Shown: in pieces, positions 211-33,777 of the stretch
Position numbering within the stretch: position 1 is the first letter of the stretch
How the letters are laid out: the number at the start of each line of letters is the position of its first letter
Assembly: GCA_964017065.1 (NCBI GenBank)
Contig: OZ024787.1
Coordinates: forward strand, 1,568,658 to 1,632,657
Length of the DNA stretch: 64,000 nucleotides
From: Haliclona indistincta
Lineage: Eukaryota > Porifera > Demospongiae > Haplosclerida > Chalinidae
Reading direction: 5' to 3'
The notes under the pieces: model-generated
Told to the model about the DNA's origin: nothing
The model's input: only the letters and a program-made list of their open reading frames with translations
Database searches by the model: none
Made by a program: the position numbers and the translations under genes

Positions 211-2770
211 TCAGTCTTTGAAAACAGTTGTTTTAACGTAAGTCTTTTTACTGTCCTGGTATACCACGGCACTGTAGACCAGCCCTTTAATACTGGCATC
301 ATTTTCTCCATTGATCACACTGTAATTAACATCAGGGATCTCTTCATAGGTTGTTCTATTAGTATCATCGATAACACTATAACCAGCAAGCTGTTCCTTA
401 TCAGTAATCTCACTGTATTCACCAGGTGATGGTACAGTGTTGCAAGGTGGAGTATTGATGTGTGTTGTGCAGCTATATAGCTCGCTGTTGTCACATGTCA
501 TTGTTGGTTCATTGTCTGTGATACCAGCCATGTCATCCAACTGTGTTGGTCTGTATAGGAACTGAATAAACAATTGGTGTGCAGTCAATGTATGAACTCA
601 CTTTGTTGTTTGTTGTTGATGATGTTTAGCTCTGTAGTACAGTATGATGATAGTAGCTATAACACACACTACTAGTAGACACACTACTAGTACTACTGGT
701 ACTACTATTGCTGGGACTAGTACATTGATAACACTAGTTGCCGTACTTGATGTAGTAGTAGGTGATGGTGATACAAATGATGTAGTAATAGTAATAGTAA
801 TAGTAGTGGATAGTGTAGTAGCTGTAGATAGTGCAGTAGCTGTGGATAGTGTAGTAGCTGTGGATAGTGTAGTAGCTGTGGATAGTGTAGTAGCTGTCGA
901 TAGTGTAGTAGCTGTCGATAGTGTAGTAGCTGTGGATAGTGTAGTAGCTGTGGATAGTGTAGTAGCTGTGGATAGTGTAGTAGCTGTGGATAGTGTAGTA
1001 GCTGTGGATAGTGTAGTAGCTGTGGATAGTGTAGTAGCTGTGGATAGTGTAGTAGCTGTGGATAGTGTAGTAGCTGTGGATAGTGTAGTAGCTGTGGATA
1101 GTGTAGTAGCTGTCGATAGTGCAGTGACTTTAGATATTGATCAGGAGGAAAGAAAAATTTGGTTTACTTTATGCTATTGTTTTACTCACCTGATGGTAGT
1201 AGTGATAGTGATGGTGTAGAGGTGATTGTTCTATTGCATTCCCATAGTAGACCTTGTATATCAGGGGCACACACACAGCAGTGTATAGGTCGAGATACAT
1301 TAGCTGTGATGTTCATGACTTGACAGCCTCGTGTTAAAGTGTTTATCACAGCTGTACAATGGTTGTTCGTACAGTTCAATGTAGTGGACACACATTGAGT
1401 GAAGTCGGTATCAAAATTACTGTTATAATTACACTTATTGGTTCTTTCTTGACAAGGTCCTGTGGATGGTATGTATATGTTATACCATGCCTACCTGTGG
1501 TGTATCATGAATACACTCAGCAATAACTATTAATCCCTCAGGCTACGCCCTCGGGATTAATAGTTATTGCTTCGTGTATTCATGATACACCACGGGTAGG
1601 CATTTTATAACTGACTTGTACCATGGCAACCACAATGCCCACTGATGTCTGTAGGTTTCTATAGGATAAATAAGGGCGGCTTGCGCACTCTTTATAGTTT
1701 ACTGGTGAGGTTGACTCGCAACTCTCACCCCTTCCTATTTTTCTCTCTGGAAGGTAGATCATTTCTATGATCTTTTTTGCCCAGTGGGAGTCATGTGACT
1801 TCCTGTGGAATATCAAGATATACCACAGGAAATCACATGATAAACCGTGGAATATCTAGTTATTCCACAGGAAATCATGTGACTTTCCGTGGTATATCTG
1901 AAATCAGAGGAGGTTGGCCACGCGTCATACTTACACGCACGATCACATGACATTGAAATAGCAAAGAGCCCCGCCCACCGATGCTGCAGCATAGCTGCTG
2001 GCAGTCCAGCTACAGTCAGTGCTGTGCGAATGGAGACCAAATGTACACGAGGCTGTCCACGAGTGATGTAGAACTGCTGCTAGCAGTGATTGAATGCTGT
2101 AGCCTTGACTGGCGGTAGGCTGTGCTCAATATGCTGTACGACTGTTATAAGCGGTCCTACAATAATGTTGGCAAGCTCCAATGCTGTTTCAAATGCTCAC
2201 AGCGTTCCTTCGGCGCTCATGGTCACCGTAGACCATCTTCTGCTTCTTCCCAATGTTTCACAGTGTGGCAACCAAAACGGCCAAGCCGAGCCAAGCCTCC
2301 TGAAATACGACCTTCTTTTGGTTGGTTAACAACTTCTTGAACGCTTGCAAACAGTTTCGCTCTGTCCTGCGCCTCCAACTAGTTGCAAATCAGCAAATTC
2401 ATATAATATGAATAAATTCATGAGGTTCCAAAAGGTTCGAAAACGTCTATTAATTTAAGTTATTCATGTTGGAATTACGTCCGGCCTGTGCGGTCACATG
2501 AACTCGGCCTACGCATTGCATACGTAGAAATGATGATCGATGACGCGTGGCCAACCTCCTCTGATCTGAAATACACCACTGGCGGTGCCTTTGAAAATAA
2601 GGCTTCCCATGGTACAAGTAATGATATACACTAGCAGAGGTTGTAGACTAATACATTTAAGTGCTACATTTCATTACCTCAGTAACCTCACCTGGTTGCT
2701 GGTCTTGTGCTGATCCAGTATTGATCCCAACACATACTATCAGTAGAACCACCAACTCACTGGACACCAT
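211..2770 (-). CDS. Array gene A: predicted type I membrane receptor, ITAM-like tail
   Basis: Exons (minus strand): 2692-2770, 1190-1459, 602-1127, 211-550; phases 1,1,2 close exactly, giving 404 aa. Exon 1 starts at ATG with a hydrophobic signal peptide (MVSSELVVLLIVCVG...TGSAQ). Exon 2 is a 90-residue domain with ten Cys, including a CC pair in IHCCVC and a last Cys followed by Asn. Exon 3 has about 17 copies of an 18-bp unit reading LSTATT (mucin-like stalk), then the helix VVLVVCLLVVCVIATIIIL and the basic YYRAKHHQQQTTK. Exon 4 is cytoplasmic with ELYS, YSEITDKEQLAGYSVI (YxxI-x8-YxxI, matches the ITAM consensus), VNYSVI and one LVYSAV. It lacks the Gln-rich linker and second YSAV found in B and D. 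Intron 1 is enlarged by transposons. All splice sites are GT/AG. Ligand and function are unknown; a signalling receptor role is inferred from the tail only. Confidence 0.8.
1473..2619. mobile_element. Nested inverted-repeat elements inserted in intron 1 of gene A
   Basis: Compared with genes E and F, where the intron runs directly from GTATGTAATGATATACAC, about 1.15 kb is inserted here. It contains a near-perfect palindrome at 1485-1612 (TGCCTACCTGTGGTGTATCA and its complement), outer ends that match as CTTGTACCATGG (1616) and CCATGGTACAAG (2606), and an inner pair of ~36-bp inverted repeats including GAGGAGGTTGGCCACGCGTC at about 1905 and 2540. No intact transposase is visible. These look like MITEs nested in one another; the class is not determined. 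Confidence 0.6.
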
Positions 2771-3009
2771 TACTAACACACCTGATATACTGACAGTGAT
2801 AACAGTACCTACATGTATGATACACAATCGTTGTAAAACACTTTGAGTCGATACTTGTGCCTAGTGTAATCTAAACAATTTTAATTTGATGTTGTTTGTG
2901 TTTCATTAAGTGTGTTACCATACTCAGGAACAGCATCACAAGAACACATTATTTAAAAAAAAACAGCTAAAGGATAATAATCATTAGTGTGCCCATTTGT
3001 TATATTTGC

Positions 3010-3185
3010 TTGCCTTGGTGGGGTGGTCTCTCTCAAGTAGTCTAAGCAGTGTGAACAGCAATGGTACTAGCTCTATACTGACAGGTCAGCTAGATCAACG
3101 TCAGAACCTACTGTTAGTGCTACTAATATAAACATAATGCTGCCACGCCCACCTACAGCTAAGTAGCTATCATAACATGTGGATA
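3010..3185 (-). promoter_or_regulatory. Conserved upstream block, candidate promoter of gene A
   Basis: Lies 240-415 bp upstream of the gene A ATG. On the minus strand it reads GGTGGGCGTGGCAGC (GC/CACCC-box like) followed closely by GTTTATATTAG (TATA-like), then a ~100-bp conserved leader. The same block occurs once upstream of most array genes (6905, 9045, 16195, 18535, 26305, 28670, 31255). Its position and conservation suggest a core promoter. This is inference; it could also be a hitch-hiking part of the duplicated unit. Confidence 0.45.
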
Positions 3186-3413
3186 GCATGTGACTGGTTT
3201 CTACACTGCCTTCAGCAAAACACTACATAGTTGATAGTAACTTGAATATTGATATCCATTAAAATCTCCATTGTGATAGAAATGAATACTGATTTCTCTA
3301 ATAACAAGCAACGTAACAAAAACACTAAGAGGGAATAACTGATGTTGATGATGGTCAACCTAACTACATATAGAGCTACACTACAGTACAGTGAGTCATG
3401 GGATACTGTATCT

Positions 3414-4769
3414 TCAGTCTTTGAAAACTGTTGTTTTAACGGTAGTTTTTGTACCATCCTTGACTACCACAGCACTGTAGACCAGCCCTTCAATACTGTT
3501 GTCTGGTACTGACTGCTGCTGCTGGCTGTCGTCAAGAACTGCTGTTGTTTTAACAGTGGTCTTTTTACCATCCTGGGATATCACAGCACTGTAGACTAGC
3601 CCTTCAATACTGGCATCCTTTTCCTCATTGATCACACTGTAATTAGCATGAGGGATCTCTTCATAGGTTTTTTTATTAGTATCATCTATAACACTGTAAC
3701 CAGCAAGCTGTTCCTTATCAGTAATCTCACTGTATTCACCAGGTGGTGGTACAGTGTTGCAAGGTGTAGTATTGATGTGTGTTGTGTGGCTATACAGCTC
3801 GCTATTATCACATGTCATTGTTGATTCTTTATCTGTGATATCAGCCAGGCTATCCAACTGTGTTGGTCTGTATAGGAACTGAATAAACATTGGTGTGCAG
3901 TCAATTCATGAACTCACTTTGTTGTTTGTTGTTGATGGTGTTTAGCTCTGTAGTACAGTATGATGATAGTAGCTATAACACACACTACTAGTAGACACAC
4001 TACTAGTGTTACTACTACACTGATAATGACATCAGTTTTCATGGCGATTGTTGGTATGATGACCATAGTAGGTGTGATATTGCTTATGTTGGTACTGTCA
4101 GCTGTACTAGTATCGTCAGCTATAGTAACAGCTGGAACGGTAATCAATATTGTGTCACCAATGTTAGTTGTCGTAGTTACTGTGGTAGTATCAGTAGTGG
4201 TCACCATGGATAATTTATTGCCATGGAAAGCAGTAGTGATTTCTGTCTTTAATAGTGCAGTAGCTGTGGATAGTTAAATACAGGAGTTAATAAATTTCCA
4301 TTGAAAACAACACTACACTCTTTGATATTATACTCACTTAGTGGTAGTGGCGAGGGCATGGTTATATAACTGCAATTCCATATTAGATTAGTACGGGCTG
4401 TTGCATTTGATTGTGGTGTACATAGACAGCAATGAATATCTACTGGTGTATCAGCTGGGATGTCTATAAAATTTTGGCAATTTCTTTGTTCAGTGTTTAT
4501 CACAGCTGTGCAATTATTTTTCACACAGTTCAATGTAGTGGACACACATTGAGTGGTGTCGTTATCATGAGCTGAATGAAAAGGCTGGCATTTGTTAGTG
4601 TTATCATCTTCACATGTTTCTGTGGAAAAGTCAACAACTTAACATGTAGGCTATGGTAATACTTTGTGTGTGGGTTAGTAACTAACTCACTTGTTGGGTC
4701 GTGTTGTGCTGATCCAGTATTGATCCCAACACATACTATCAGTAGAACCACCAACTCACTGGACACCAT
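3414..4769 (-). CDS. Array gene B: predicted type I membrane receptor, ITAM-like tail, non-repeat stalk
   Basis: Exons 4691-4769, 4338-4619, 3918-4263, 3414-3867; phases close to 386 aa. The signal peptide is as in gene A. The exon 2 domain keeps the Cys spacing (ETCEDDN...QCVSTTLNC...IHCCLC...WNCS) but is one of the most diverged in sequence and a little longer. The stalk has only a remnant of the LSTATT unit and is instead rich in TTTDTTTVTTTTN-type sequence. Transmembrane and basic segments are almost identical to the paralogues. The tail has YSEITDKEQLAGYSVI, ANYSVI and two LVYSAV motifs separated by a Gln-rich linker (SQQQQS). No frame lesion was seen. A signalling receptor role is inferred. 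Confidence 0.8.
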
Positions 4770-5171: not shown

Positions 5172-6634
5172 CTACAATAATGAGGTCTTAGTCTTTGAAG
5201 AGACTGTTGTTTTCACAGTAGTCTTGATACCATCCTTGACTACCACAGCACTGTAGACCAGCCCCTCATTACTGGTGTCTGATACTGACTGCTGCTGCTG
5301 CTGCTGCTCATCAATCTGTGCTGTTGTTTTCACAGTAGTCTTGATACCATCCTGACGTACCACAGCACTGTAGACCAGCCCATCATTGCTAGCATCTTGT
5401 GCCTCAGTAATCACACTGTAATCAGCAGGGATCTCCTCTTTGGTTGTTTTAACAATAGTGCCGATAGCACTGTAACCAGCAAACTGTTCCTCCTCAGTAA
5501 AATCACTTTGTTTGTCAGGTAGTGGGCCTTCAGTGCTGTATGGTAGGGTCTGGCTGTATAGCTCACTATTATCACAAGTCAGTGTTTGTTCACTCTCTGT
5601 GATATCAGCCATGTTATCCAACTGATGGTGTATTCGTCTACATGTGATAACATAATACACATGTTGCAGGTAACATAAACCATAAACTCACTTTGTTGTT
5701 TGTTGTTGATGGTGTTTAGCTCTGTAGTACAGTATGATGATAGTAGCTATAACACACACTACTAGTAGACACACTACTAGTACTACTACTACTGGTGCTA
5801 CTATTGCTGGGACTACTGCACTATTACTAGCACTAGTTGCCATACTTGATGTGGCGATCATAGTACTAATTATAACACCATCAGTTGCAATGAATGTTGT
5901 TATTGGCTGAACTGCAATATTATTGGTAGTAGTAGGTGAGTCAAGGGAGGCACTAGTAGTCACAGTCTGTAGTGTAGTAGCTATGGATAGTGCAGTAGCT
6001 GTGGATAGTGTAGTAGCTGTGGATAGTGTAGTAGCTGTGGATAGTGTAGGAAATGTGGATAGTGTAGTAGCTGTGGATAGTGTAGTAGCTGTGGATAGTG
6101 TAGTAGCTGTGGATAGTGTAGTAGCTGTGGATATTGATTTGGAGGAAAGAAGTATTCATTGGTTTACTCCATGGTATTGTTTGTTGTTTTACTTACCTGA
6201 TGGTAGTAGTGATAGTGATGGTGTAGAGGTGATTGTTGTATTGCATTCCCATCGTAGACCGTGTATATCAGAGGCACACTGACAGCAATATATAGGTTGA
6301 GATACATTAGCTCCGATGTTCATGAATTGACAGCCTCGTGTTTCAGTGTTTATTTCAGCTGTACAATAGTTGTTTGTACAGTTAATTGTAGTGGGGACAC
6401 ATTGAGTGGTGTTAACATCATAATTACTGTTAAAATTGCATTTATTAGTTCCTTCTTGACAAGGTTCTGTGGATAGTAATCATAGTATGTACTGATATAC
6501 GCTAGCAGAGGTTGTAGACTAATACATTTAGGTGCTACATTTCATTAACTCAGCTCACCTAGTTGGTCTTGTGCTGATCCAGTATTGATCCCAACACATA
6601 CTATCAGTAGAACCACCAACTCACTGGACACCAT
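5172..6634 (-). CDS. Array gene C: predicted type I membrane receptor, tail class without a complete ITAM
   Basis: Exons 6559-6634, 6197-6466, 5692-6124, 5172-5637; in phase, 414 aa. Exon 2 has the usual ten-Cys pattern (EPCQEGTNKC...INCTNNYC...IYCCQC...WECN). The stalk carries about nine 18-bp units, one degenerate, plus a SPTTTNNIAVQPITTF segment shared with D, E and H. The tail belongs to a second class: the position of the first ITAM tyrosine reads KQSDFTEEEQFAGYSAI, so only the second tyrosine is left. It keeps LPYST, AGYSAI, ADYSVI and two LVYSAV motifs. The last residues differ from all paralogues: a 2-bp gain (GTCTCTTCAAAG against GTCTTCAAAG) changes the end TVFKD* into TVSSKTKTSLL*. 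Confidence 0.78.
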
Positions 6635-7299: not shown

Positions 7300-8785
7300 T
7301 CAGTCTTTGAAAACGGTTGTTTTAACGGTAGTTTTCGTACCATCCTTGACTACCACAGCACTGTAGACCAGCCCCTCATTACTGGTGTCTGATACTGGTT
7401 GCTGCTGCTGCTGGCTGTCGTCAATAACTGCTGTTGTCTTAACAGTTGTCTTTTTGCCATCCTGAGATACCACGGCACTGTAGACCAGCCCTTCAATACT
7501 GGCATCCTTTTCCTCATTGATCACACTGTAATTAACATCAGGGATCTCTTCATTGTTTGTTTTAGTGGTACCATCGATAACACTGTAACCAGCAAGCTGT
7601 TCCTCATCAGTAATCTCACTGTATTCACCAGGTGATGGTACAGTGTTGCAAGGTGTAGTATTGATGTGTGTTGTGTGGTTATACAGCTCGCTATTATCAC
7701 ATGTCATTGTTGATTCATTGCCTGTAATACCAGCCATGTTATCCAACTGTGTTGGTCTGCATAGAAAATGAATAAACTTTGACATACATTAATTATGTTA
7801 TAAACTCACTTTGTTGTTTGTTGTTGATGGTGTTTAGCTCTGTAGTACAGTATGATGATAGTAGCTATAACACACACTACTAGTAGACATACTACTAGTA
7901 CTACTGTTACTAGTATTGCTGGAACTACTGCACTAATACTAGCACTGGTTGCTGTACTTGATGTGACGATCATAGTAGTAGTTATAACACCATCAGTTGC
8001 AATGAATGTCGTTATTGGCTGAACTGCAATAGTATTGGTAGTAGTAGGTAAGTCAAGGGAGACACTAGTAGTCACAGTCTGTAGTGCAGTATCTGTGGAT
8101 AATGCAGTAGCTGTGGATAATGCAGTAGCTGTGGATAGTGCAGTAGCTGTGGATAGTGTAGTAGCTGTGGATAGTGTAGTAGCTGTGGATAGTATAGTAG
8201 ATGTGGATGGTGTAGTAGCTGTTAGTGTAGTAGCTGTGGATAGTGTAGTAGCTGTGGATAGTGCAGTAGCTGTGGATAGTGCAGTAGCTGTGGATAGTGC
8301 AGTAGCTGTAGTTATAGATTAGGAGGAAAAAAATGGTTTACTCCATGCTATTGTTTGTTGTTTTACTCACCTGATGGTAGTAGTGATAGTGAGAATGAAG
8401 TTATTATATTACAGCCCCATCGTAGATTTGATATATTTGTTGCACCAAGGTAACACATACAGCAGTGGATAGGTAGAGATACATTAGCTCCGATGTTCAT
8501 GACTTGGCATACTTCTCGTGTTACAGTCTTTATCACAGCTGTACAGCCATTGTTCGTGCAGTTCAATGTAGTGGACACACATTGAGTGCGGTTGGTATCA
8601 AAAGCCGTGTTAATACCACATATATTAGTTGTAGCTTGACAAAGTTCTGTGGATAGTGTGTAACAATGATATGGCACTAGCAGAGTTTGTAGACTGCTAG
8701 AATATGACACTAGCTCACCTTGTGCTGATCCAGTATTGATCTCAACACATACTATCAGTAGAACCACCAACTCACTGGACACCAT
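7300..8785 (-). CDS. Array gene D: predicted type I membrane receptor, ITAM-like tail
   Basis: Exons 8719-8785, 8371-8646, 7810-8305, 7300-7756; in phase, 431 aa. It has a shorter exon 1 (22 codons plus one base). The Cys-rich domain has an extra loop residue set (MCYLGATNISNLRWGCN) with the same Cys order. The stalk has about 12 units of the 18-bp repeat with A/T variants (STATAL and STATTL). The tail is the fullest of the family: ELYN, GEYSEITDEEQLAGYSVI (ITAM consensus), VNYSVI, LVYSAV, a QQQQQ linker and a second LVYSAV, ending TVFKD. The intron between exons 1 and 2 happens to be open in frame, which can mislead gene prediction, but the donor and acceptor match the paralogues. Confidence 0.8.
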
Positions 8786-9044
8786 TACTAACACACCTGA
8801 TATACTGACAGCAGTCACAGTAACCTACATGCAAACATTATAAAACACATTAAGTCGATACATGTACAATCAGCCTAACGTAATCTAAACAATTTTAATT
8901 TGTGTTTCATTAAGGTATTTTTATCATACTCTGAAACACCATCACAAGAACACATATTGATTTTCAGCTATAGGATAATAATATGAAAAAGCAGATTCAA
9001 GTTTAAGTTTCATGCTAATTGAATTATGTTTAAAAAGTAGATCA

Positions 9045-9205
9045 TGATCTGCTTGCCTTGGTGGGTTGGTCTCTCTCAAGTAGTCTAAGCAGTGTGAACA
9101 GCAATGGTACTAGCTCTATACTGACAGGTCAGGATCAGCGTCAGAACCTACTGTTAGTGCTACTAATATAAACATAATGCTGCCACGCCCACCTACAGCT
9201 GTGTA
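9045..9205 (-). promoter_or_regulatory. Conserved upstream block, candidate promoter of gene D
   Basis: Copy of the conserved block about 380 bp upstream of the gene D start; TATA-like at 9165-9175 on the minus strand. Its distal end (GTGTAGCTA) is cut by the MITE that starts at 9210. Confidence 0.45.
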
Positions 9206-9209
9206 GCTA

Positions 9210-9377
9210 CCGTAAGAGGGAAATTTTCAGCCTATTCGCGAAAATTTTATCTGTGAATGTCTTGTTTTAGTTGACAAAGATAGGGCAATAGCGCTGATTT
9301 GCGAAAATATTATTCGCGAAATGCTCTAACCCGCGCATTCACGAAATTTTCTCCCTTGAAAATTTCTTACTATACAG
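9210..9377. mobile_element. TA-target MITE (family 1, copy 1)
   Basis: About 168 bp with imperfect terminal inverted repeats (CCGTAAGAGGGAAATTTT against CTGTATAGTAAGAAATTTTC). It is inserted in the array consensus GTAGCTATCATAACATG so that TA is duplicated on both sides. A second copy with the same core (TGACAAAGATAGGGCAATAG) lies in a dynein intron at 62499-62688. Non-coding; mariner-like by target site only. Confidence 0.65.
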
Positions 9378-9379
9378 TA

Positions 9380-10110
9380 TCATAACATGGTTTCTATACT
9401 GCCTTCAGCTATATCGCCCAGGAAGTCACGCTCTCTTCCTGGGGATATATATCCTCCAGGAAGTCAGCTGACTTCAAAAAGTTGCCTCCCACTTACCCTT
9501 TCAATACGAAAGGAGGAGAGGCTGGCTTCACATAGAGTAAATCCGAAGTTTCCTTTGACGAGATTGCGGCGATTTTATAGCACTCAAGATTCATGATACT
9601 TGTGGGGCTCAAATAGTGCAAAGAAATGGCGTCTTGAATTTGTGGACAACAAAATAACACAGCCATAATCATGTAAAGGGAACTATCTGCAGCATTTAAA
9701 AAGCACAACTAAGTTTGGAGCGTGAACCAAGCTCGTTGGGAGGGCCAAGCTCAAGCTTAACAAAGGACGCGTTACTCGACCGACTGACAGTGACGAACGA
9801 CGCTGGTAACGGGCAAGTTGTTGGTAAGAATGGCTGGACAAACTACTGCAACTTAGGTTTGTTAAGCTGCAAGGCTAAAGCAGGACCCACGTATGCCTCA
9901 GCGAGGCTTACCTTTGCTGTCAGTTCTTCGGGCGGTCAACCAACGATCAGTCCCGCCCTCGACAAAGTTGGCTTATCCACGTTAGTAAACGGATGAAAGT
10001 CTGTGCAGAGAGCCAGTCTTGCTGTTGGATCTGAGAGCTTCCTGAGCTACAAAATGGTTAACCCATGGGTTAACCTATACTTAAAAATCTACATTGCAAT
10101 AGAAATTATT
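9380..10110. other. Non-array spacer, origin unknown
   Basis: This stretch does not match the array consensus. It includes a short palindromic part near 9405-9465 (CAGGAAGTCACGC...TTCCTGGGGATATATATCC) and a 93-codon open frame at 9715-9996 with no recognisable motif, which I do not call as a gene. It may be an unclassified insertion. Confidence 0.4.
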
Positions 10111-12159: not shown

Positions 12160-13709
12160 TCAGTCTTTGAAGACTGTTGTTTTCACAGTAGTCTTGATAC
12201 CATCCTTGACTACCACAGCACTGTAGACCAGCCCCTCATTACTGGTGTCTGATACTGACTGCTGCTGCTGCTCATCAATCTGTGCTGTTGTTTTCACAGT
12301 AGTCTTGATACCATCCTGACGTACCACAGCACTGTAGACCAGCCCATCAATACTGGTGTCTTGTGCCTCAGCAATCGCACTGTAACCAGCAGGGATCTCC
12401 TCTTTGGTTGTTTTACCGATAGAACCGACAGCACTATAACCAGCAAGCTGTTCCTCTTCAGTAATCTCACTGTGTTCATCAGGTAGTGGGCCTTCAGTGC
12501 TGTATGGTAGGGTCTGGCTGTATAGCTCACTATTATCACAAGTCAGTGGCTGTTGACTCTCTGTGATATCAGCCATGTTATCCAACTGATGGTGTGTTTG
12601 TCTACATGTGATAACGTAATACACATGTAGCAGGTAACTTAAACTCACTTTGTTGTTTGTTGTTGATGGTGTTTAGCTCTGTAGTACAGTATGATGATAC
12701 TAGCTATAACACACACTACTAGTAGACACACTACTAGTACTACTACTGGTGTTACTATTGCTGGGACTACTGCACTAATACTAGCAGTGGTTGCTGTACT
12801 TGATGTGGCGATCATAGTAGTAGTTATAACACCATCAGTTGCAATGAATGTCGTTCTTGGCTGAATTGCAATCGTATTGGTAGTAGTAGATGAATCAAGG
12901 GAGACACTGGTAGTCACAGTCTGTAGTGAGCTAGCTGTGGATAGTGTAGTAACTGTGGATAGTGTAGTAGCTGTGGATAGTGTAGTAGCTGTGGATAGTG
13001 TAGTAGCTGTTGATAGTGTAGTAGCTGTGGATAGTGTAGTAGCTGTGGATAGTGTAGTAGCTGTGGATAGTGTAGTAGCTGTGGATAGTGTAGTAGCTAT
13101 GGATAGTGTAGTAGCTGTGGATAGTGTAGTAGCTGTTGATAGTGTAGTAGCTGTGGATAGTGTAGCAGCTATGGATAGTGTAGTAGCTGTGGATAGTGTA
13201 GTAGCTATGGATAGTGTAATTGCTGTGGATATTGATAGGATTATTCATTGGTTTACTCCATGCTATTGTTTGTTGTTTTACTCACCTGATGGTAGTAGTG
13301 ATAGTGATGGTGTAGAGGTGATTGTTCTATTGCATTCCCATAGTAGACCTGGTATATCAGGGGCACACACACAGCAATGTATAGATTGAGATACAGTAGC
13401 TGTGATGTTCATGAATTGACAGCCTCGTGTAAAAGTGTTTATTTCAGCTGTACAATGGTTGTTTGTACAGTTAATTGTAGTGGGCACACATTGAGTGGGG
13501 TTGGTATCAAAAGCACTGTTATAATCACATCTATTGGTTCCTTCTTGACAAGGTCCTGTGGATAGTATGTAATGATATACACTAGCAGAGGTTGTAGACT
13601 AATAAATTTAGGTGCTACATTTCATTAACTCACCTGGTTGGTCGTCTGCTGATCCAGTACTGATTCCAACACATACTATCAGTAGAACCACCAACTCACT
13701 GGACACCAT
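12160..13709 (-). CDS. Array gene E: predicted type I membrane receptor, tail class without a complete ITAM
   Basis: Exons 13634-13709, 13286-13555, 12649-13222, 12160-12601; in phase, 453 aa, the longest member. Its Cys-rich exon is close to those of genes A and F (GPCQEGTNRC...INCTNNHC...IHCCVC...WECN). The stalk has about 16 near-identical 18-bp units, with exon 3 beginning inside the first unit (TATCCACAG|CAATT). The tail has LPYST, EHSEITEEEQLAGYSAV (His instead of the first ITAM Tyr), AGYSAI, and two LVYSAV motifs around a short Gln run. The gene lies at the right end of the duplicated segment, and its closest relative in the window is gene H at the end of the other copy. Confidence 0.8.
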
Positions 13710-16604: not shown

Positions 16605-18302
16605 TTCAGTCTTTGAAAACAGTTGTTTTAACGTAAGTCTTTTTATTGTCCTGGTATACCTCGGCACTGTAGACCAGCCCTTCAATACTGGCATCATTTT
16701 CCTCATTAATCACACTGTAATTAACATCAGGGATCTCTTCATAGGTTGTTAACCCTCGGCGCATGCGCGAGGGTTACGGTACTTGCTCTGTCACTCACTC
16801 ATTCCTTCCTTCGTTCGTTCATTCATTCTGTCCATCGAGCTGCAGAGACTATCGCTCACTTCTGAAACTCTGTAAAGGTACATGTATGAACAGGCTTAGC
16901 ACGACAATGGCTTGCAATGTGACTCGTGGATTTCGCTAAAGTGCTTTCGTTCTCGAGTTATGTATGGCTGGCTCACCTATGGCTGGCTGTCGACAGCCAT
17001 CTTGGACCTCTCTGACGGCAAAAGCGCCCACAGTTGACTACCTAGGTACTTGTAGATTCTATATAAACTTCAGGACAGCTCTGGGGGTGCGTAGACATCT
17101 CAAGAAAAAGCCTATCAAAGCCAAGAGCAATGGCTAGCTACTCAGTGTTCACGGTCACGCCCACTTGTCACACCTTGTTCTTGTGGTCAGCACTTTGCTG
17201 TCTTCTGGTTATTAGTGCAGTTTCAATTGCAACCAGGTTGGTTTTAGCTGCAAAGCTCCTTCTGCAAAACATAACCAAGGAGCTAACTCTACAATGTGCA
17301 ACACGCCGAGGGTTTCGTGAAATCTGTTCATTTTATTAGTATTATCGATAACACTATAACCAGCAAGCTGTTCCTTATCAGTAATCACACTGTATTCACC
17401 AGGTAGTGGTACAGTGTTGAAAGGTGTAGTATTGATGTGTGTTGTGTGGCTATACAGCTCGCTATTATCACATGTCATTGTTGGTTCATTGTCTGTGATA
17501 CCAGCAATGTTATCCAACTGTGTTGGTCTGTATAGGAACTGAGTAAACATTGGTGTGCAGTCAATGCATGAACTCACTTTGTTGTTTGTTGTTGATGGTG
17601 TTTTGCTCTGTAGTACAGTATGATGATAGTAGCTATAACACACACTACTAGTAGACACATTACTAGTAATACTACTGGTGCTACTATTGCTGGGACTACT
17701 GCATTGATAACACTAGTTGCCGTACTTGATGTAGTAGTAGGTGATGGTGATACAAATGATGTACTAGTAGTAATAGTAGTGGATAGTGTAGTAGCTGTTG
17801 ATAGTGTAGTAGCTGTAGATATTGATCAGGAGGAAAGAAAAATTTGGTTTACTTTATGCTATTGTTTTACTCACCTGATGGTAGTATTGATAGTGATGGT
17901 GTAGAGGTGATTGTTCTATTGCATTCCCATAGTAGACCTGGTATATCATCAGGGACACACAGACAGCAATGTATAGGTCGAGATACAGTAGCTGTGATGT
18001 TCATGAATTGACAGCCTCGTGTAAAAGTGTTTATTTCAGCTGTACAATGGTTGTTTGTACAGTTAATTGTAGTGGACACACATTGAGTGGGGTTAGTATC
18101 AAAAGCACTGTTATAATCACATCTATTGGTTCCTTCTTGACAAGGTCCTGTGGATAGTATGTAATGATATACACTAGCAGAGGTTGTAGACTAATAAATT
18201 TAGGTGCTACATTTCATTAACTCAGCTCACCTGGTTCTTGTGTTGATCCAGTATTATTCCAACACATACTATCAGTAGAACCACCAACTCACTGGACACC
18301 AT
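16605..18302 (-). pseudogene. Array gene F: receptor copy with three lesions
   Basis: Exons by comparison: 18231-18302, 17875-18147, 17578-17812, and a tail exon at 17331-17527 continued at 16605-16750. (1) The signal-peptide exon is 1 bp short (TATTATTCCAAC against TATTGATCCCAAC), so the ATG frame does not join exon 2. (2) The tail exon is split by a ~580-bp insertion; reading through it adds unrelated residues and stops at 17212. (3) The TATA-like part of its upstream block is degenerate (TATTACAAACAC). The Cys-rich domain and transmembrane helix are intact, the stalk has only two repeat units, and the tail keeps GEYSVITDKEQLAGYSVI before the break. Confidence 0.75.
16751..17330. mobile_element. 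Insertion splitting the tail exon of gene F
   Basis: About 580 bp between GGTTGTT and TTTTATTAG, which are contiguous in the paralogues. It starts with AACCCTCGGCG, itself part of a hairpin (AACCCTCG...CGAGGGTT), and near the right end has the inverted CGCCGAGGGTTT. Inside are a TATA-like TCTATATAAAC (about 17061) and a short open frame at 17130-17339 that I do not recognise. The target duplication is unclear. Confidence 0.6.
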
Positions 18303-18720: not shown

Positions 18721-18989
18721 TGTGACTGGTTTCTATAGCAAACACTACAGAGTTGATAGTAACTTGAATAATGATATCCATTAAAAATCTACATTGTAAT
18801 AGAAATTATTACTGATTTCTCTAACAACAAGCAACGTAACAATTACAACACTAAGAGGGAATAACTGATGTTGATGATGGTCAACCTAACTACATATAGA
18901 GCTACACTACAGTACAGCGAGTCATGGGATACTGTATTTTCAGTCTTTGAAAACGGTTGTTTTAACGGTAGTTTTCGTACCATCCTTGA

Positions 18990-20437
18990 CTACCACAGCA
19001 CTGTAGACCAGCCCCTCATTATTGGTGTCTGATACTGACTGCTGCTGGCTGTCGTCAAGAACTGCTGTTGTTTAACAGTAGTCTTTTTGCCGTCCTGGGA
19101 TACCACAGCACTGTAGACCAGTCCTTCAATACTGGCATCCTTTTCCTCATTGATCACACTGTAATTAACATCAGGGATCTCTTCATTGGTTGTTTTGTTA
19201 GTATCATCGATAGCACTGTAGCCAGCAAGCTGTTTCTCATCAGTAATCTCACTGTATTCACCAGGTGTTGGTACAGTGCTGTATGGTAGGGTAATATCGT
19301 GTGTTGTGTGGTTATACTGCTCGCTGTTATCAGATGTCATTGTTGGTTCATTGTCTGTGATACCAGCCATGTTATCCAACTGATGGTGTGTTTGTCTACA
19401 TAGAAAATGAATAAACTTTGGTGTGCAGTCAATGTCTAAACTCACTTTGTTGTTTGTTGTTGATGGTGTTTAGCTCTGTAGTACAGTATGATGATAGTAG
19501 CTATAACACACACTACTAGTAGACATACTACTAGTACTACTACTGGTGCTACTATTACCACAGTAATAGTAGTACCTGTTGCCATGGTGACCGGAATAAT
19601 AGTACTGGCATCAACTGTTACAGTATCATCAGTTGCCATAGTAACAGTTGATGTGGCAGTTAGTTTTACCATAGCATTATCAGTGGGGCTAAAACTATCA
19701 GTTGTCACGGAAATAGTAGACATGGGCGTGGTGGTCAATTGCACTCTGCTTGTATCGGTAGTAGTTAATACGGTAACAGCAGATAATGTGTTGTCATGGT
19801 AAGCTCTTGTAGTACTAATCTCAGTCTGTATTATGGTAAAATTATCAGTTGTCATGGAAATAGTAGACATGGGCGTGGTGGTCAATTGCACTCTGGTTGT
19901 ATCGGTAGTATCGGTAGTAGTAACAGCAGATAATGTGTTGTCATGGTCAGCTCTTGTAGTACTAGTCACAGTTTGTGTTAGTACCTTTGTTGTAGCTGTA
20001 AATGGTGAATCGTTTTTAAATCTGGATTGGTTCACTGTTGCTACACTCACCTGATGGTAGTAGTGATAGTGATGGTGGGATTGTAGTACAGCCCCATATC
20101 AGTGGACCATCATCTGGGGCACAAAGACAGCAGTGGATAGGTTGTGATACATTAGCTCCGATGTTTATGAATTGACAGTCTCTTATGATTGTATTTATCT
20201 TTGCTTCACAGTCATTGTTCACACAGTTCAATGTAGTTGATACACATTGAGTGGTGTGATTGTCAAAACCTTCATCGTAAGTGCAATTCCTGTTGTTATC
20301 ATCTCGACAAGGTGCTGTGCATTGGAAAGTACAAATGATTGTGTGTTAGTAGCTGAGTCACCTGGTTGGTCTTGTGCTGATCCAGTATTGATCCCAACAC
20401 ATACTATCAGTAGAACCACCAACTCACTGGACACCAT
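18990..20437 (-). CDS. Array gene G: receptor copy with frameshifted tail and a different stalk
   Basis: Exons 20362-20437, 20051-20314, 19446-19995, 18990-19395; in phase as read, 431 aa. Intron 2 is only ~55 bp. The stalk lacks the LSTATT repeat. Instead it has two ~47-residue tandem repeats (STTRAYHDNTLSAVT...RVQLTTTPMSTIS), still Ser/Thr-rich. The Cys-rich domain resembles that of gene I (QCVSTTLNCVNNDC...IHCCLCAPDDGPLIWGC). The tail has GEYSEITDEKQLAGYSAI, VNYSVI and one LVYSAV. A missing T near 19070 (GTTGTTTAACAG against GTTGTTTTAACAG) then shifts the frame, ending in ASSSQYQTPIMRGWSTVLW and losing the second YSAV; the family stop would be at 18940. This could be a real lesion or a sequence error. 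Confidence 0.72.
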
Positions 20438-24579: not shown

Positions 24580-26043
24580 TTAGTCTTTGAAGACTGTTGT
24601 TTTCACAGTAGTCTTGATACCATCCTTGACTACCACAGCACTGTAGACCAGCCCATCATTACTGGTGTCTGATACTGACTGCTGCTGCTGCTCATCAATC
24701 TGTGCTGTTGTTTTCACAGTAGTCTTGATACCATCCTGACGTACCACAGCACTGTAGACCAGCCCATCATTACTAGCATCTTGTGCCTCAGTAATCACAC
24801 TGTAACCAGCAGGGATCTCCTCTTTGGTTGTTTTAACAATAGTACCGACAGCGCTGTAACCAGCAAGCTGTTCCTCCTCAGTAAACTCACTGTGTTTATC
24901 AGGTAGTGGGCCTTCAGTGCTGTATGGTAGGGTCTGGCTATATAGCTCACTATTATCACAAGTCAGTGTTTGTTCACTCTCTGTGATATCAGCCATGTTA
25001 TCCAACTGATGGTGTGTTCGTCTACATGTGATAACGTAATACACATGTAGCAGGTAACTTAAACTCACTTTGTTGTTTGTTGTTGATGGTGTTTAGCTCT
25101 GTAGTACAGTATGATGATAGTAGCTATAACACACACTACTAGTAGACACACTACTAGTACTACTACTGGTACTACTATTGCTGGGACTACTGCACTAATA
25201 CTAGCACTGGTTGCCGTACTTGATGTGACAATCATAGTAGTAGTTATAATACCATCAGTTACAATGAATGTTGTTATTGCAATAGTATTGTTAGTAGTAG
25301 GTGAGTCAAGGGAGGCACTAGTAGTCACAGTCTGTAGTGCAGTAGCTGTGGATAGTGTAGTAACTGTGGATTGTGTAGTAGCTGTGGATAGTGTAGTAGC
25401 TGTTGATAGTGTAGTAGCTGTGGATAGTGCAGTAGCTGTGAATAGAGTAGTAGCTATGGATAGTGCAGTAGCTGTGGATAGTGTAGTAGCTATGGATAGT
25501 GTAGTAGCTGTGGATAGTGTAGTAGCTGTGGATAGTGTAGTAGCTGTGGATAGTGTAGTAGCTGTGGATAGTGTAGTAGCTGTAGATATTGAAAGGAATT
25601 GGTTTACTCCATGCTATTGTTTGTTGTTTTACTCACCTGATGGTAGTAGTGATAGTGATGGTGAAGTTGTTATATTACAGTCCCATCGTAGACTTGTTTG
25701 GTTATTTGTATCAAGGAAACACACACAGCAGTGGATAGGTAGGGATACATTAGCTCTGATGTTCATGAATTCGCAGAATTCTCGTGTAAAAGTGTTTATC
25801 ACAGCTGTACAGCCATTGTTCGTACAGTTCAATGTAGTGGACACACATTGAGTGGGGTTAGTATCAAAACCACTGTTAAAATCACATATTGTAGCTTGAC
25901 ACGATTCTGTGGATAGTATAACAATGATATTGCACTAGCAGAGTTTGTAGACAGCTAGAATATGACACTAGCTCACCTTGTGCTGATCCAGTATTGATTC
26001 CTACACATACTATCAGTAGAACCACCAACTCACTGGACACCAT
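24580..26043 (-). CDS. Array gene H: predicted type I membrane receptor, tail class without a complete ITAM
   Basis: Exons 25977-26043, 25637-25906, 25069-25579, 24580-25021; in phase, 429 aa. The Cys-rich exon starts ESCQATICDFNSGFDTNPTQC, missing a few residues between the first two Cys compared with E. The stalk has about 13 units of the 18-bp repeat with a few substitutions. The tail nearly matches gene E: LPYST, KHSEFTEEEQLAGYSAV (His at the first ITAM Tyr), AGYSVI, two LVYSAV. It ends in TAA rather than TGA. It is the partner of gene E in the segmental duplication. Confidence 0.8.
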
Positions 26044-27332: not shown

Positions 27333-28419
27333 TCAGTCTTTGTATTCGGTTGTTTTAACGGTAGTTTTCACACCATCTTGTACTACCACAGCACTGTAGA
27401 CCATTCCTTCAATACTGGTGTCTGATTCTGGTTGCTGCTGCTGGCTGTCGTCAAGAATTGCTGTTGTTTTAACAGTAGTCTTTTTACCATCCTGGGATAC
27501 CACAGCACTGTAGACCAGTCCTTCAATACTGGCATTCTTTTCTCCACTGTAATTAACATAAGGGATCTCTTCATTGGTTGTTTTATTAGTATCATCGATA
27601 GCACTGTAATTAGTCTATGCAAACAGGTTAATATTTATAAACTCACTTTGTTGTTTGTTGTTGATGGTGTTTAGCTCTGTAGTACAGTATGATGATAGTA
27701 GCTATAACACACACTACTAGTAGACACACTACTAGTACTACTGTTACTACTACTGCGACTATTACTGGATTGATAGTAGCACTGGTTGTCATGGTAATTG
27801 TTGGTGTGTTGGTAATAGAGGTAGTACTAACACTAGTATCTGTTGTCATGGTAATGGTTGTCATGGTGATCATGGTAGAGTCTGTAACAGTTGTCGTAGT
27901 AACAGGTGGATCGGGGAAGGCACTGGTAGTCACAGTTTGTGATAGTGCAGTAGCTGTTGGGGAGTTGATAATGGATTTAAATTTTGTGTACATTATTCAT
28001 TGGTTTACTCCATGCTATTGTTTGTTGTTTTACTCACCTGATGGTAGTAGTGATAGTGATGGTGTGATTATAGTACAGCCCCATATCAGTGGACCATCAC
28101 CTGGGACACAAAGACGGCAGTGGATAGGTTTTGATACATTAGCTCCGATGTTCATGAATTGACAGTCTCTTTTGAGCATATTTATCTCAGTTTTACAGTC
28201 ATTGTTCACACAGTTCAATGTTGTAGTCACACATTGAGTGATGTTTGTGTCAAAGCTTGGTTTGAAAGTGCAATTCCTGTGGTTATAATCTTGACAAGGT
28301 TCTGCGCATGGAAGGTAAAATGATTGTGTGTTAGTAGCTGACTCACCTGGTTGTTGTGCTGATCCAGTATTGATCCCAACACATACTATCAGTAGAACCA
28401 CCAACTCACTGGACACCAT
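27333..28419 (-). CDS. Array gene I: receptor copy whose tail lacks the ITAM
   Basis: Exons 28347-28419, 28038-28301, 27647-27953, 27333-27603; in phase, 304 aa. Exon 4 is shortened at its 5' side. The only acceptor that keeps the family frame is ACAG at 27604-27607, so the tail starts at NAIDDTNKTTNEEI and the ELYS and ITAM part is gone. What remains is VNYSG, LVYSAV, a QQQQ linker, a second MVYSAV and a changed end (TTEYKD). The Cys-rich domain has CR in place of the CC pair (PIHCRLC). The stalk is Thr/Met-rich with hardly any LSTATT. Exon 4 boundaries are less certain than in the other copies. Confidence 0.68.
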
Positions 28420-29106: not shown

Positions 29107-30290
29107 TTAGTCTTTGAAAACGGTTGTTTTAATGGTAGTTTTGACTCCATCTTGGACTACCACAGCACTGTAGACCAGTCCTTCAATACTGTTGTCTGAT
29201 ACTGACTGCTGCTGCTGGCTGTCGTCGTCAAGAACTGCTGTTGTTTTAACAGTGGTCTTTTTACCATCCTGGGATACCACAGCACTGTAGACCAGCCCTT
29301 CAATACTGGCATCCTTTTCCTCATTGATCACACTGTAATTAGCATCAGGGATCTCTTCATAGGTTGTTTTATTAGTATCATCGATAACGCTATAACCAGC
29401 AAGCTGTTCCTTATCAGTAATCTCACTGTATTCACCAGGTGATGGTACAGTGTTGCAAGGTGTAGTATTGATGTGTGTTGTGTGGTTATACAGCTCGCTA
29501 TTGTCAGATGTCATTGTTGGTTCATTGTCTGTGATACCAGCCATGTTATCCAACTGTGTTGGTCTGTATATAGGAACTGAATAAACTTTGATTTTATGTT
29601 ATAAACTCACTTTGTTGTTTGTTGTTGATGGTGTTTAGCTCTGCAGTACAGTATGATGATAGTAGCTATAACACACACTACTAGTAGACACACTACTAGT
29701 ACTGCTACTACTACTGCTGGGACTACTGCACTAATAGCACTAGTTGGTGTACTTGGTGTAGTAGTAGGTGATGGTGATACAAATGATGGAGTAGTAGTGG
29801 ATAGTGTAGTAGCTGTGGATAGTGTAGTAGCTATAGGTATTGATTAGGAGGAAAGAATTGGTTTACTCCATGCAATTCTTTGTTGTTTTACTCACCTGAT
29901 GGTAGTAGTGATAGTGAGAATGAAGTTGTTATATTGCAGTCCCATAGTAGATTTAATGGATTATTTGTATCAGGGGAGCACACACAGCAGTGGATAGGTA
30001 GAAGTACATTAGCTCCGATGTTCATGAATTTGCACAATTTTCGTGTAAAAGTGTTTATCACAGCTATACAGCCATTGTTCGTACAGTTCAATGTAGTGGA
30101 CACACATTGAAAGATGTCGGTATCAAAACCACCGTTAAAATCACATGTTGTAGCTTGACAAGATTCTGTGGATAGTGCAACAATGATATTGCACTAGCAG
30201 AGTTGGTAGACACACTAGCTCACCTTGTGCTGATCCAGTATTGATTCCAACACATACTATCAGTAGAACCACCAACTCACTGGACACCAT
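29107..30290 (-). CDS. Array gene J: predicted type I membrane receptor, ITAM-like tail, short stalk
   Basis: Exons 30224-30290, 29896-30165, 29611-29830, 29107-29563; in phase, 337 aa. The stalk is very short, with two 18-bp units followed by a PSPTTTPS-type run. The Cys-rich exon is most like that of gene H (SCQATTC...LNCTNNGC...IHCCVCSPDTNN...WDCN). The tail is complete and close to genes B and D: ELYN, GEYSEITDKEQLAGYSVI, ANYSVI, and two LVYSAV around SQQQQS. Stop is TAA. No lesion was seen. Upstream, its leader is interrupted by an insertion at 30453. Confidence 0.8.
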
Positions 30291-31030: not shown

Positions 31031-31066
31031 CCATTAATATGAAAAGCAGAATCAAGTTTTACTTTC

Positions 31067-31229: not shown

Positions 31230-31254
31230 ACTTTCATGCCATTGGTTATAAAAT

Positions 31255-31435
31255 TATTTGCTTGCCTTGGTGGGGTGGTCTCTCTCAAGTAGTCTAAGCA
31301 GTGTGAACAGCAATGGTACTAGCTCTATACTGACAAGGTCAGCTAGATCAGCGTCAGAACCTACTGTTAGTACTACCAATACTAATGCTGTCACGCCCAC
31401 CTACAGCTGAGTAGCTATCATAACATGTGGATAGC
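31255..31435 (-). promoter_or_regulatory. Conserved upstream block, gene J
   Basis: Copy of the block, but the TATA-like segment is replaced (TACCAATACTAATGCTGTCACGCC). With the two insertions it lies ~970 bp from the gene J start. Confidence 0.35.
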
Positions 31436-31439
31436 ATCT

Positions 31440-31800
31440 GACTGGCTTCTTTGATGTCTTCTGCATACTAGTTAAAGCACCGTGTCCAGTGCTCTATTGC
31501 GTATAATTACATGAGTGATGTGCTGAGAGGCAAATAGAGCACGAGCCGAAGGCGAGTGGTTCATTTGTCATCGAGACACGTCCCGAGTGCAATTTATGCC
31601 GTAGAGCATGAGACACAGTGTTTTACTGGTTTAAAGTGTGACCTAGCCGATACTACTCCAGAGTCGATCACTACGCGAACATTTTTTTTTTCGAGTAGCT
31701 GCCCATGGCCCTGCCCCTAGTGCTCTATCAGTTGATGCATGCACTCTGTAGCATTTAGAACACTGGCGGCACCTTTGAACTTGTATGGTATCATACTTTA
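31440..31800. other. Non-array insertion between genes J and K
   Basis: The sequence from CTTCTTTGATGTCTTC to about 31795 is absent from the other spacers. It contains AGCACCGTGTCCAGTGCTCTATT and the related, partly inverted GAGCATGAGACACAGTGTTTTA near 31605, so it may be a degraded mobile element. No gene was found. Confidence 0.35.
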
Positions 31801-31990
31801 AAGAGTTGATGGTAACTTGAGTAATGAGATACATTAAATCTACATTGCAATAGAAATTATTTCTGATTTCTCTAACAACAAGCAACGTAACAATTACAAC
31901 ACTAAGAGGGAATAACTGATGTTGATGATGGTCAACCTAACTACATATAGAGCTACACTACAGTACAGTGAGTCATAAATTGTTGCCTTT

Positions 31991-32088
31991 TCAGTCTTTG
32001 GGGACAGTTGTTTTCACAGTAGTCTTGATACCATCCTGACGTACCACAGCACTGTAGACCAGCCCCTCGTTACTGGTGTCTGATACTG

Positions 32089-32132
<44 letters not shown>

Positions 32133-33777
32133 CTGTCGTTGTGAATAAACTTTGACATAGATGTACATTCATGGTACACACTCACTTTGTTGTTTGTTGT
32201 TGATGGTGTTTAGCTCTGTAGTACAGTATGATGATAGTAGCTATAACACACACTACTAGTAGACACACTACTAGTACTACTACTGGTACTACTACTACAC
32301 TGAGAGTAGTATCAGGTGTACCAATATTATGTGGTGTGTTGTCAAGGGAGGCACTACTATTCACAATCTGTGATTGTGTAGCAGCTGTTGTGGAGGCACT
32401 AATAGTCACAGTCTGTGATAGTGTAGCAGCTGTGGAACAACAAAATGTAATTCATAGTATGTCAATCAGCTTAATCTATTTGAGGGCATTAATGTAGGTT
32501 ATTGACCGCGCGTAATTAATCTATGGCAACAAGTAACGATGCACCGTCGTTTTAGTGTTGACTGCATGGGATTCGAGTCTTCATCAGATGGCGCAACTTA
32601 ACGAATGTTGTTGTGCGAAGTAGTTCGTGCCTACAAGAGCCCTAGTTCATCCCATGATCAGCAGTGCCGACGCACGAGCCACCATTGGGCCGATCCCGCA
32701 CGTGATGAAGAGTGTCCTGGATTGTAGTTGCGCCTCGTACAATAAACTATAATTTAAACCATTTATTGCACTACACAGCTCGGGCATAGCCGACATTATT
32801 GACCTTTGGAAAGTCGAGTTACCCTCAAACAGTCTCGGGATACTCTCTTGACCGTTATTCGGGCTACACGACTTTTCCTCAGTCAATAATGTCAGTTATT
32901 GCCCTCATGTGAGTGCAAATTATTTGTCAGAGCATTTACTGCGACAAAATAGCATTACGAAAAGCTATTTGTGTTTTGCACACTCATAAAAATTCCTTTA
33001 CAAACCTTCCTGCTATATGATGATACACATGACAATTTAGTCATTTTTTTGGTATTATAACCAGCAAAGTGTTCCTTCACAATGCTGCTTACCTGATGTT
33101 GTTAGTGATGGAACGGATGTGGTTATATTGCAGTCCCATGAAAATTGACCATGTATATCAGTGTAGCACAGACAGCAATTGATAGGTAGTGATGATACAT
33201 TAGCTGGGATGTTCATAAATCGACATTCTCGTGGAAAATAGTGTATTACAGCTGTGCAATTGCTATCCACACAATTCAATGTAGCTGGTAAGCAGACAAA
33301 CTGTACGTCAGTACCAGCATAAAGCGCATTGCACTTATTGCTTTTATCTTGACAAGGCCCTGTAGTAGTACAATGGTTAATGATATGGACTACTGTACTT
33401 TATAGTGTACAGTTTTGCTAATAATTATTATTATACAGTGGAACTCCTCCTTGTGAACACCCCCATACACACACTCTAATACAGATGCTGTTTGTGATCA
33501 CTAACAAAATTCTGAAAGGTATAATACATTAATGACCCTGAAATGCGAACATCCCACTGTTCCATAAAGCAGACGCCCAAGCATGTCCACAAATGTTTTA
33601 GTCAATAGTAAAGGCGTGTTCGTACACATAATAGATTGACACATAATAGATTCTTCCAGAATACCTTGCACTATTGTTTTGCATGTGCCTAGTTATTGGC
33701 TCACTTGCTTGTTGTTCTGATCCAGTATTGATCCCAACACATGCTATCAGTAGAACCACCAACTCACTGGACACCAT
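31991..33777 (-). CDS. Array gene K: receptor copy with polyQ tail and no ITAM
   Basis: Exons 33705-33777, 33093-33359, 32186-32429, 31991-32132; in phase, 241 aa, the shortest member. The tail exon starts directly in a CAG repeat (acceptor CGACAG|CCAG), giving about 14 Gln, then SVSDTSNEGLVYSAVVRQDG and the end TVPKD. All motifs upstream of the last YSAV are missing. The Cys-rich domain is the most diverged (GPCQDKSNKC...LNCVDSNC...INCCLC...WDCN). The stalk is short without LSTATT (NSSASLDNTPHNIG). Intron 2 carries a MITE. It is the last array gene before the dynein gene. Confidence 0.72.
32482..32909. mobile_element. MITE in intron 2 of gene K
   Basis: The ends are inverted repeats of about 25 bp (GAGGGCATTAATGTAGGTTA against GAGGGCAATAACTGACATTA at the other end). 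About 428 bp, no transposase. The element accounts for most of the unusual length of this intron. Confidence 0.6.
33360..33704 (-). other. Intron 1 of gene K, no further feature
   Basis: AT-rich sequence between the signal-peptide exon and the Cys-rich exon. I see no coding or repeat structure beyond short AT runs. Confidence 0.4.

Follow-up and report, generated by a model that had tools for sequence, protein, structure and literature searches.

A tandem array of mucin-stalked receptor genes with ITAM/ITIM-like tails in the demosponge Haliclona indistincta: a candidate family of paired receptors

The window analyzed here is a stretch of 64,000 nucleotides (C5:1568658-1632657) from the 144 Mb, 46-contig genome of the demosponge Haliclona indistincta, and it contains a tandem array of 11 paralogous receptor genes (A to K), all on the minus strand between window positions 211 and 33777. 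As a sequence observation, a tandem array of mucin-stalked receptors whose tails resemble the immunoreceptor tyrosine-based activation motif (ITAM) and inhibitory motif (ITIM) is confirmed. The best reading of the array is a family of paired activating and inhibitory receptors, which we consider moderately probable.

The receptor genes have four exons each, encoding a signal peptide, a domain of ten cysteines, a Ser/Thr stalk with one hydrophobic helix, and a tyrosine-rich tail. Signal-peptide starts lie at 33777, 30290, 28419, 26043, 20437, 18302, 13709, 8785, 6634, 4769 and 2770; the plus strand, searched with the same patterns, gave zero matches. An initial annotation, made from the letters alone, had described 11 minus-strand paralogues sharing this architecture in five parts, and all 11 are found, except that the domain of gene I has nine cysteines, not ten. 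The same annotation held that exon phases close in every copy but F. GT-AG sites with phases 1/1/2 are present in A to E, G, H and J, and likewise in K with its short tail, and F is indeed broken by the loss of one base in exon 1 (an insertion of about 570 b also splits its tail, window 16606-17330); gene I, however, closes solely via an acceptor inside the tail, so that the ITAM half is lost. By reading, there is one transmembrane (TM)-like helix per window gene; the predicted helix, LVVCLLVVCVIATIIILYYRAKHHQQQTTK, is charge-free along its inside (also by reading), and the stretch is near-identical in 18 of 23 array genes, the ones where the TM pattern matched.

The array continues leftward past the window edge. 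With the domain of gene A as query (75 candidates scored; all counts are lower bounds), at least 71 matches were found genome-wide, none with an in-frame stop in the matched stretch: at least 33 in the main array (C5 1.472-1.602 Mb, about 130 kb, all minus), at least 7 in another cluster (C5 5.336-5.359 Mb, all plus), at least 29 on C6, and two weak matches on C4. The tail of gene J as query gave 72 matches, spread over the main array and C6 (13.2 and 14.06-14.15 Mb) with one on C9, and at least 13 of those outside the window contain in-frame stops; it gave zero matches in the C5:5336152-5358885 cluster of seven ectodomain exons, which suggests that the genes there have different or missing tails. 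Among 51 relatives from the protein database, 7 are at least 98.9% identical to the compared loci of this genome and the other 44 reach at most 71% there in their best alignments (relative P0012, compared with the whole genome, 60%); these 44 are probably proteins of a related sponge, possibly of a different individual. With 11 window genes inside an array of at least 33 matches, the earlier description of a clustered and diversified family is borne out, and the window may show the far end of a family of single-pass surface receptors that is large and still growing in a demosponge, a view that we hold jointly with the signalling reading as a whole and with somewhat more belief than doubt.

For the tails we defined a strict ITAM as YxxI/L-x6-8-YxxI/L, a loose ITAM by x6-12 and I/L/V, and an ITIM-type motif as [SILV]xYxx[ILV]. 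Tails of type 1 (A, B, D, F, G, I and J) carry YSEITDKEQLAGYSVI or a variant of it, gene I being without this half. As annotated initially, the fit to YxxI-x8-YxxI is exact (YSEI-x8-YSVI) in A, B, D and J, and F and G have variants of it; YEEI, also present in the tails of A, B and J, had been overlooked. Tails of type 2 (C, E and H) have Gln or His in place of the first ITAM tyrosine. An in-frame [LM]VYSAV is found in all window tails but that of F, which is cut short. A further motif, (V/A)NYSVI, had been said to fit [ILV]xYxx[ILV]; this is true of VNYSVI (A, D and G) but not of ANYSVI (B and J), because its -2 residue is Ala. When each of ten window tails (K was left out) was compared with its own shuffles, one or two strict ITAM pairs were counted in each of A, B, D, F, G and J against shuffle means of 0.00-0.01, well beyond chance, and none in C, E, H and I; core YxxI/L/V motifs numbered 4-6 against shuffle means of 1.1-1.4 in 8 of the 10 tails (two each in F and I). 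The loose form adds one pair each in C, E and H (YSVI-x12-LVYSAV), and YxxI/L-x6-12-YxxI/L stands behind the TM helix, as placed by reading, in A, B, D, G and J, and in the broken tail of F. Family-wide, in the 26 tails that could be read from 30 loci (leaving out L012, in the wrong frame, L021 and L028, repeats of L010 and L019, and L026, a fragment), ITIM-type motifs occur in 25, strict ITAMs in 11, loose ITAMs in 20 and NPxY in 3 (all on C6), with up to ten core motifs in a single tail, and among 34 relatives outside the compared own-genome loci, [LM]VYS[AT]V occurs in 28 and a strict ITAM in 26, these sets being biased toward like tails because they were found with the sequence of gene J as query.

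Ectodomains and tails do not share one history. With the array genes just left of the window (m1 to m4) included, exon 2 forms clade I (A, C, E, F, m1), clade II (D, H, J, m4) and clade III (G, I, m2, m3), while exon 4 groups C, E, H, m1 and m3 against A, B, D, F, G, I, J and m2; outside the window, domain and tail were paired by nearest position (1,735 b apart in m1). The conflict between the two trees was seen in four approximately unbiased (AU) tests, each forcing one of four groups together on the other exon (delta lnL 167-237; p from 3e-5 to 6e-79), the p-values being not strictly independent because the groups had been picked by visual inspection of these same sequences ahead of tree building. 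Piecewise identities, for which exon 2 of F was taken 7 b too long, agree: gene H is closest to J in exon 2 (89%), to C and E in exon 4 (95-99%) and to E in intron 3 (100%), and in gene D the end of exon 3 (last 180 nt) matches H (97%), the start of exon 4 (first 150 nt) matches J (97%), and the end of exon 4 is nearer G (96%) and B (93%) than J (88%). Tree conflict and piecewise identities together therefore indicate that both types of tail are found in all three ectodomain clades and that more than one exchange took place. Each of clades I, II and III is joined to tails with and without a strict ITAM, at the sequence level the arrangement of paired receptors; to judge from the exons, recombination has repeatedly paired one ectodomain lineage with tails that have and tails that lack the ITAM pair.

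Docking partners of the Syk, Src and SHP kind had been named as what such tails would bind, and by their domain matches all three kinds appear to be encoded in the same genome, which has 90 exon-level SH2 matches. Two neighbouring intronless open reading frames (ORFs) on C9 (C9:7650603-7653885) each hold two SH2 domains and a tyrosine phosphatase (PTP) domain, the best PDB match of one being PTPN11 (E 8e-192); a third gene of SHP-2 type, on C2 (12787 kb), has the same domains and bears introns, and the C9 ORFs are possibly retrocopies of an ITIM effector. A gene on C8 has an N-terminal SH2 domain matching ZAP-70 best (E 4e-36) and a C-terminal one matching SYK best (E 4e-40), followed by a kinase P-loop exon. 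Exons combining SH2 and kinase occur on C2, for which Src-like is our own label, drawn from layout and sequence. At C2 14.20-14.23 Mb (L066, L067) such exons show the altered catalytic motifs HRNLAARN and DNFSRA, and may be pseudokinases.

In a paired-receptor system of this kind, the small disulfide-rich beta domain, displayed on its mucin-like stalk, would bind a ligand and so cluster the receptors, the tails of which would then be phosphorylated by Src-type kinases. The widespread C-terminal LVYSAV would recruit SHP-2-type phosphatases, with inhibitory or modulating effect, and the optional upstream YSEI-x8-YSVI pair (together with YEEI where present) would recruit a Syk-type tandem-SH2 protein or Src-type kinases, with activating effect; shuffling would let a single binding lineage serve both outputs. 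These signalling steps are taken from vertebrate pathways, and by analogy with them we infer phosphorylation, docking, the sign of the signal, and a use in self/non-self or microbe recognition. The initial interpretation is thus partly supported, and its immune or allorecognition use stands at that same conditional level. That the family is a sponge's own immune or allorecognition complex, of recombining ten-Cys receptors in ITAM and ITIM versions acting through Src, Syk and SHP-2, is a tentative proposal.

Several observations weigh against paired signalling. The -2 position of many upstream motifs is Ala or Gly, and the ITIM-type count is a weak excess, matched by 0.15-5.5% of shuffles in eight tails, by 24% in I and by all in F. 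Since loose ITAM-like pairs occur in 20 of the 26 tails, type 2 included, the label "ITAM-poor" hinges on the strict definition. The kinase domain of the C8 Syk-type gene was read as a P-loop exon alone, without a Syk-specific match, and the locus is not among the best 133 of 1135 kinase candidates listed. Genes F, G and I are damaged. Selection speaks with two voices: pairwise ratios of nonsynonymous to synonymous substitution (dN/dS, by the method of Nei and Gojobori; the exon 4 part without I, m4 and m4b, which have stops, and F and m2 placed outside the type 1 group) are 1.31, 0.91 and 0.94 within the exon-2 clades (dN>dS in 17/26 pairs) and 0.46 and 0.54 within the tail types (0/20 pairs), a contrast that counts in favour of the paired-receptor reading but is limited to close copies because the all-pairs ratios are equal, at 0.57 in exon 2 (dN>dS in 19/105) and 0.55 in exon 4 (1/66). 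Young ectodomain copies therefore change fast at the protein level and the domain overall is constrained; a ratio near 1 in exon 2 fits relaxed constraint as well as diversifying selection, and gene conversion distorts pairwise dN/dS.

The strongest rival starts from the fact that YxxPhi is also an AP-2 sorting signal, for which the tails would read the same: YxxPhi repeats would bind AP-2 and let mucin-stalked adhesion or glycocalyx proteins cycle, with no SH2 signalling. YSVI, YSAV and YSEI all fit YxxPhi, stalk lengths differ greatly, and the C6 tails with NPxY (an internalisation or phosphotyrosine-binding (PTB) motif) would suit such cycling; type 1 tails nevertheless keep a constant x8 spacing, and their strict pairs far outnumber those in shuffled tails, which argues for more than sorting, as do the near-universal ITIM-type motif and the numbers of core motifs per tail, beyond what sorting is expected to need, and the SH2 toolkit encoded in the genome, and we think sorting alone unlikely. 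Similarly improbable, in our view, is a purely inhibitory or adhesive family, in which LVYSAV recruits SHP-2 while duplication of one YSxI module has incidentally produced the ITAM-like spacing. Such duplications are visible in the tail, motifs of LVYSAV type are retained in nearly all tails, and ITAM tyrosines have repeatedly been lost (C, E, H, m2, m3 and m6); on the other side stand the strict ITAMs kept in this genome and, more often, in the relatives, and the Syk-type tandem-SH2 gene. Very unlikely, lastly, is a largely decaying tandem array that unequal crossing-over had expanded, in which few members would be expressed and none would serve diversification, for although it would account for damaged genes, in-frame stops in tails elsewhere and an exon-2 dN/dS fitting relaxation, the domain matches are free of stops in the matched stretch, within-type tail dN/dS is about 0.5, the TM stretch is near-identical in 18 of 23 array genes, most window genes retain their splice sites, and relatives share the same family and motifs.

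Table 1. Receptor genes and tail and stalk features, in window positions; exons are listed in the order of transcription
Feature	Position	Strand	Details
Gene A	211-2770	minus	exon 1 2770-2692 (signal peptide); exon 2 1459-1190 (10-Cys domain, clade I); exon 3 about 1127-602 (17.8 x 18-bp stalk repeat, TM; start by reading); exon 4 550-211 (tail type 1)
Gene B	3414-4769	minus	exon 1 4769-4691; exon 2 4619-4338; exon 3 end 3918; exon 4 3867-3414 (type 1, LVYSAV x2)
Gene C	5172-6634	minus	exon 1 6634-6559; exon 2 6466-6197 (clade I); exon 3 end 5692; exon 4 5637-5172 (type 2, first ITAM Tyr lost, C-terminus altered)
Gene D	7300-8785	minus	exon 1 8785-8719; exon 2 8646-8371 (clade II); exon 3 end 7810; exon 4 7756-7300 (type 1)
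Gene E	12160-13709	minus	exon 1 13709-13634; exon 2 13555-13286 (clade I); exon 3 end 12649; exon 4 12601-12160 (type 2)
Gene F, broken	16606-18302	minus	exon 1 18302-18231 (one-base loss); exon 2 18147-17875 (clade I); exon 3 end 17578; exon 4 start 17527, interrupted, remainder 16752-16606
Gene G	18940-20437	minus	exon 1 20437-20362; exon 2 20314-20051 (clade III); exon 3 end 19446; exon 4 from 19395 (type 1; frameshift past first LVYSAV, stop 18990; unshifted end matches at 18940)
Gene H	24580-26043	minus	exon 1 26043-25977; exon 2 25906-25637 (clade II); exon 3 end 25069; exon 4 25021-24580 (type 2)
Gene I	27333-28419	minus	exon 1 28419-28347; exon 2 28301-28038 (9 Cys, clade III); exon 3 end 27647; exon 4 27603-27333 (ITAM half missing)
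Gene J	29107-30290	minus	exon 1 30290-30224; exon 2 30165-29896 (clade II); exon 3 end 29611; exon 4 29563-29107 (type 1, LVYSAV x2)
Gene K	31991-33777	minus	exon 1 33777-33705; exon 2 33359-33093; exon 3 about 32429-32186; exon 4 32132-31991 (poly-Gln run, one LVYSAV, no ITAM)
ITAM-type pair (YSEITDKEQLAGYSVI in A, equivalents in B, D and J)	A 370-417; B 3687-3734; D 7576-7623; J 29383-29430	minus	
ITAM-type pair, variants	F 17347-17394; G 19209-19256	minus	YSVI first in F
ITIM-type LVYSAV	A 265-282; B 3582-3599, 3468-3485; C 5361-5378, 5244-5261; D 7471-7488, 7354-7371; E 12325-12342, 12214-12231; G 19104-19121; H 24745-24762, 24634-24651; I 27501-27518; J 29278-29295, 29161-29178; K 32045-32062	minus	
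18-bp stalk minisatellite	A 806-1125; C 5970-6133; D 8082-8309; E 12932-13231; H 25335-25588	minus	codes the Ser/Thr stalk (LSTATT in A)

The 18-bp stalk repeat, present in about 2-3 units in F and J, itself carries an acceptor-like CTATCCACAG, and the acceptor of exon 3 is therefore uncertain; several genes have the same letters at the 3' splice site ahead of exon 2. Any one unit might be used as an in-frame alternative acceptor, making the length of the stalk variable. The tail of gene K starts with 14 CAG units coding poly-Gln (window 32090-32131). Of the four C6 receptors at 13.2 and 14.1 Mb (L022, L025, L027 and L029), three have NPxY in the tail, and L022 holds stalk, TM and tail within a single open frame. 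The window from about 35 to 64 kb is filled by a dynein heavy chain gene, between whose exons, on the same strand, lies a 522-aa ORF for a POT/PTR2 transporter (window 56673-58241).

The profile and structure searches that had been proposed for the exon 2 domain gave a structure model that is all-beta and no convincing fold match. Pfam searches of the domain, tail and stalk exons returned weak matches only (nine families at E<=10, each in 1 of 28 domains), and a PDB sequence-profile search of the ten-Cys domain returned none at E<=10. The CCxC...CN ending, which we took as a hint of a three-finger (Ly6/activin-receptor) fold, is a suspicion only and was not confirmed, as no such fold is among the matches listed (15 from VIA, 50 of 85 from Foldseek), a result that does not exclude it. 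OB-like parts, GFP barrels, TREM-1 and TCR are among the listed fold matches, too weak to be used.

That the genome is not that of a vertebrate, as the initial annotation had concluded, follows from its mitochondrial contig, C46 (24,895 b; cox1), the first 10 kb of which, read in code table 4, hold nad4L, cob, atp9 (ATP synthase subunit c), nad4 and ten tRNAs. To our knowledge, a mitochondrially encoded atp9 is, among animals, characteristic of sponges; together with code 4 and the tRNAs it therefore points to a non-keratose demosponge. Demosponge mitochondrial DNA has 14 protein genes, atp9 among them, and in the keratose sponges covered by the same source no more than two tRNAs are retained (PMC2800124). 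The same contig (L086) has a duplicated stretch at 8179-9444 with trnR(ucg) twice. A silicatein motif was searched for and not found, which says little.

Aggregation factors are secreted molecules of proteoglycan type, with no TM or signalling tail. The array departs from them in having a TM-like helix per gene, and no Calx-beta or similar aggregation-factor domain is among the Pfam matches of the receptor family. In sponges these factors are a gene family discussed for allorecognition in the consulted sections of a 2025 review, which name no ITAM/ITIM receptor in sponges (PMC12065747). A search of the open-access literature, with subscription papers mostly outside its scope, likewise found no sponge receptor family with ITAM/ITIM tails. 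The array supplies receptor candidates in a sponge that are defined by sequence; their ectodomain falls in no known family, and their tail can be put to peptide tests at once.

Vertebrate KIR, LILR, Siglec and FCRL are tandem genes with related ectodomains on activating or inhibitory tails and with rapid recombinational turnover; their ectodomains are immunoglobulin or lectin domains, and their activating members for the most part depend on an adaptor and on a charged residue in the TM. The sponge family resembles them in its tandem genes, in its related ectodomains on differing tails and in recombination, and differs from their activators in a TM that is charge-free (by reading) and in an ITAM within the receptor's own tail. 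Hydractinia Alr genes encode clustered single-TM receptors, as does the sponge family, with immunoglobulin-like ectodomains; the sponge family has a ten-Cys domain, modelled as all-beta and without found relative, on a mucin-like stalk. Since that domain has no found relative, descent from any of the compared systems is not shown. The candidate allorecognition genes of Alr, in the sections of the review used here, have ITAM/ITIM motifs and signalling partners encoded in the same genome, a likeness to the sponge (PMC12065747). In the same sections, Botryllus FcoR (fuhc locus) is a type I TM protein with ITIM, hemITAM and core YxxI/L/V motifs and activating and inhibitory members (PMC12065747). 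It is thus like the sponge receptors in its type I TM layout, its ITIM and core YxxI/L/V tails and the mixed signs proposed within one locus. It differs from them in swapping ITIM and hemITAM by allele or splicing (PMC12065747), whereas sponge tail exons differ between genes by recombination, and probably also in its ectodomains, which are of immunoglobulin and sushi type. The conflict between exons illustrates how a single binding lineage may become connected to different tails. The receptors are candidates, open to testing, for a part in self/non-self or microbe recognition within a very old lineage of animals. If the proposal of a sponge immune or allorecognition complex is true, the logic of ITAM and ITIM, described so far in cnidarians, tunicates and vertebrates, would extend to the base of the animals; in its likely mode of work, the sponge array would stand closest to Hydractinia Alr, Botryllus FcoR and the paired receptors of vertebrates.

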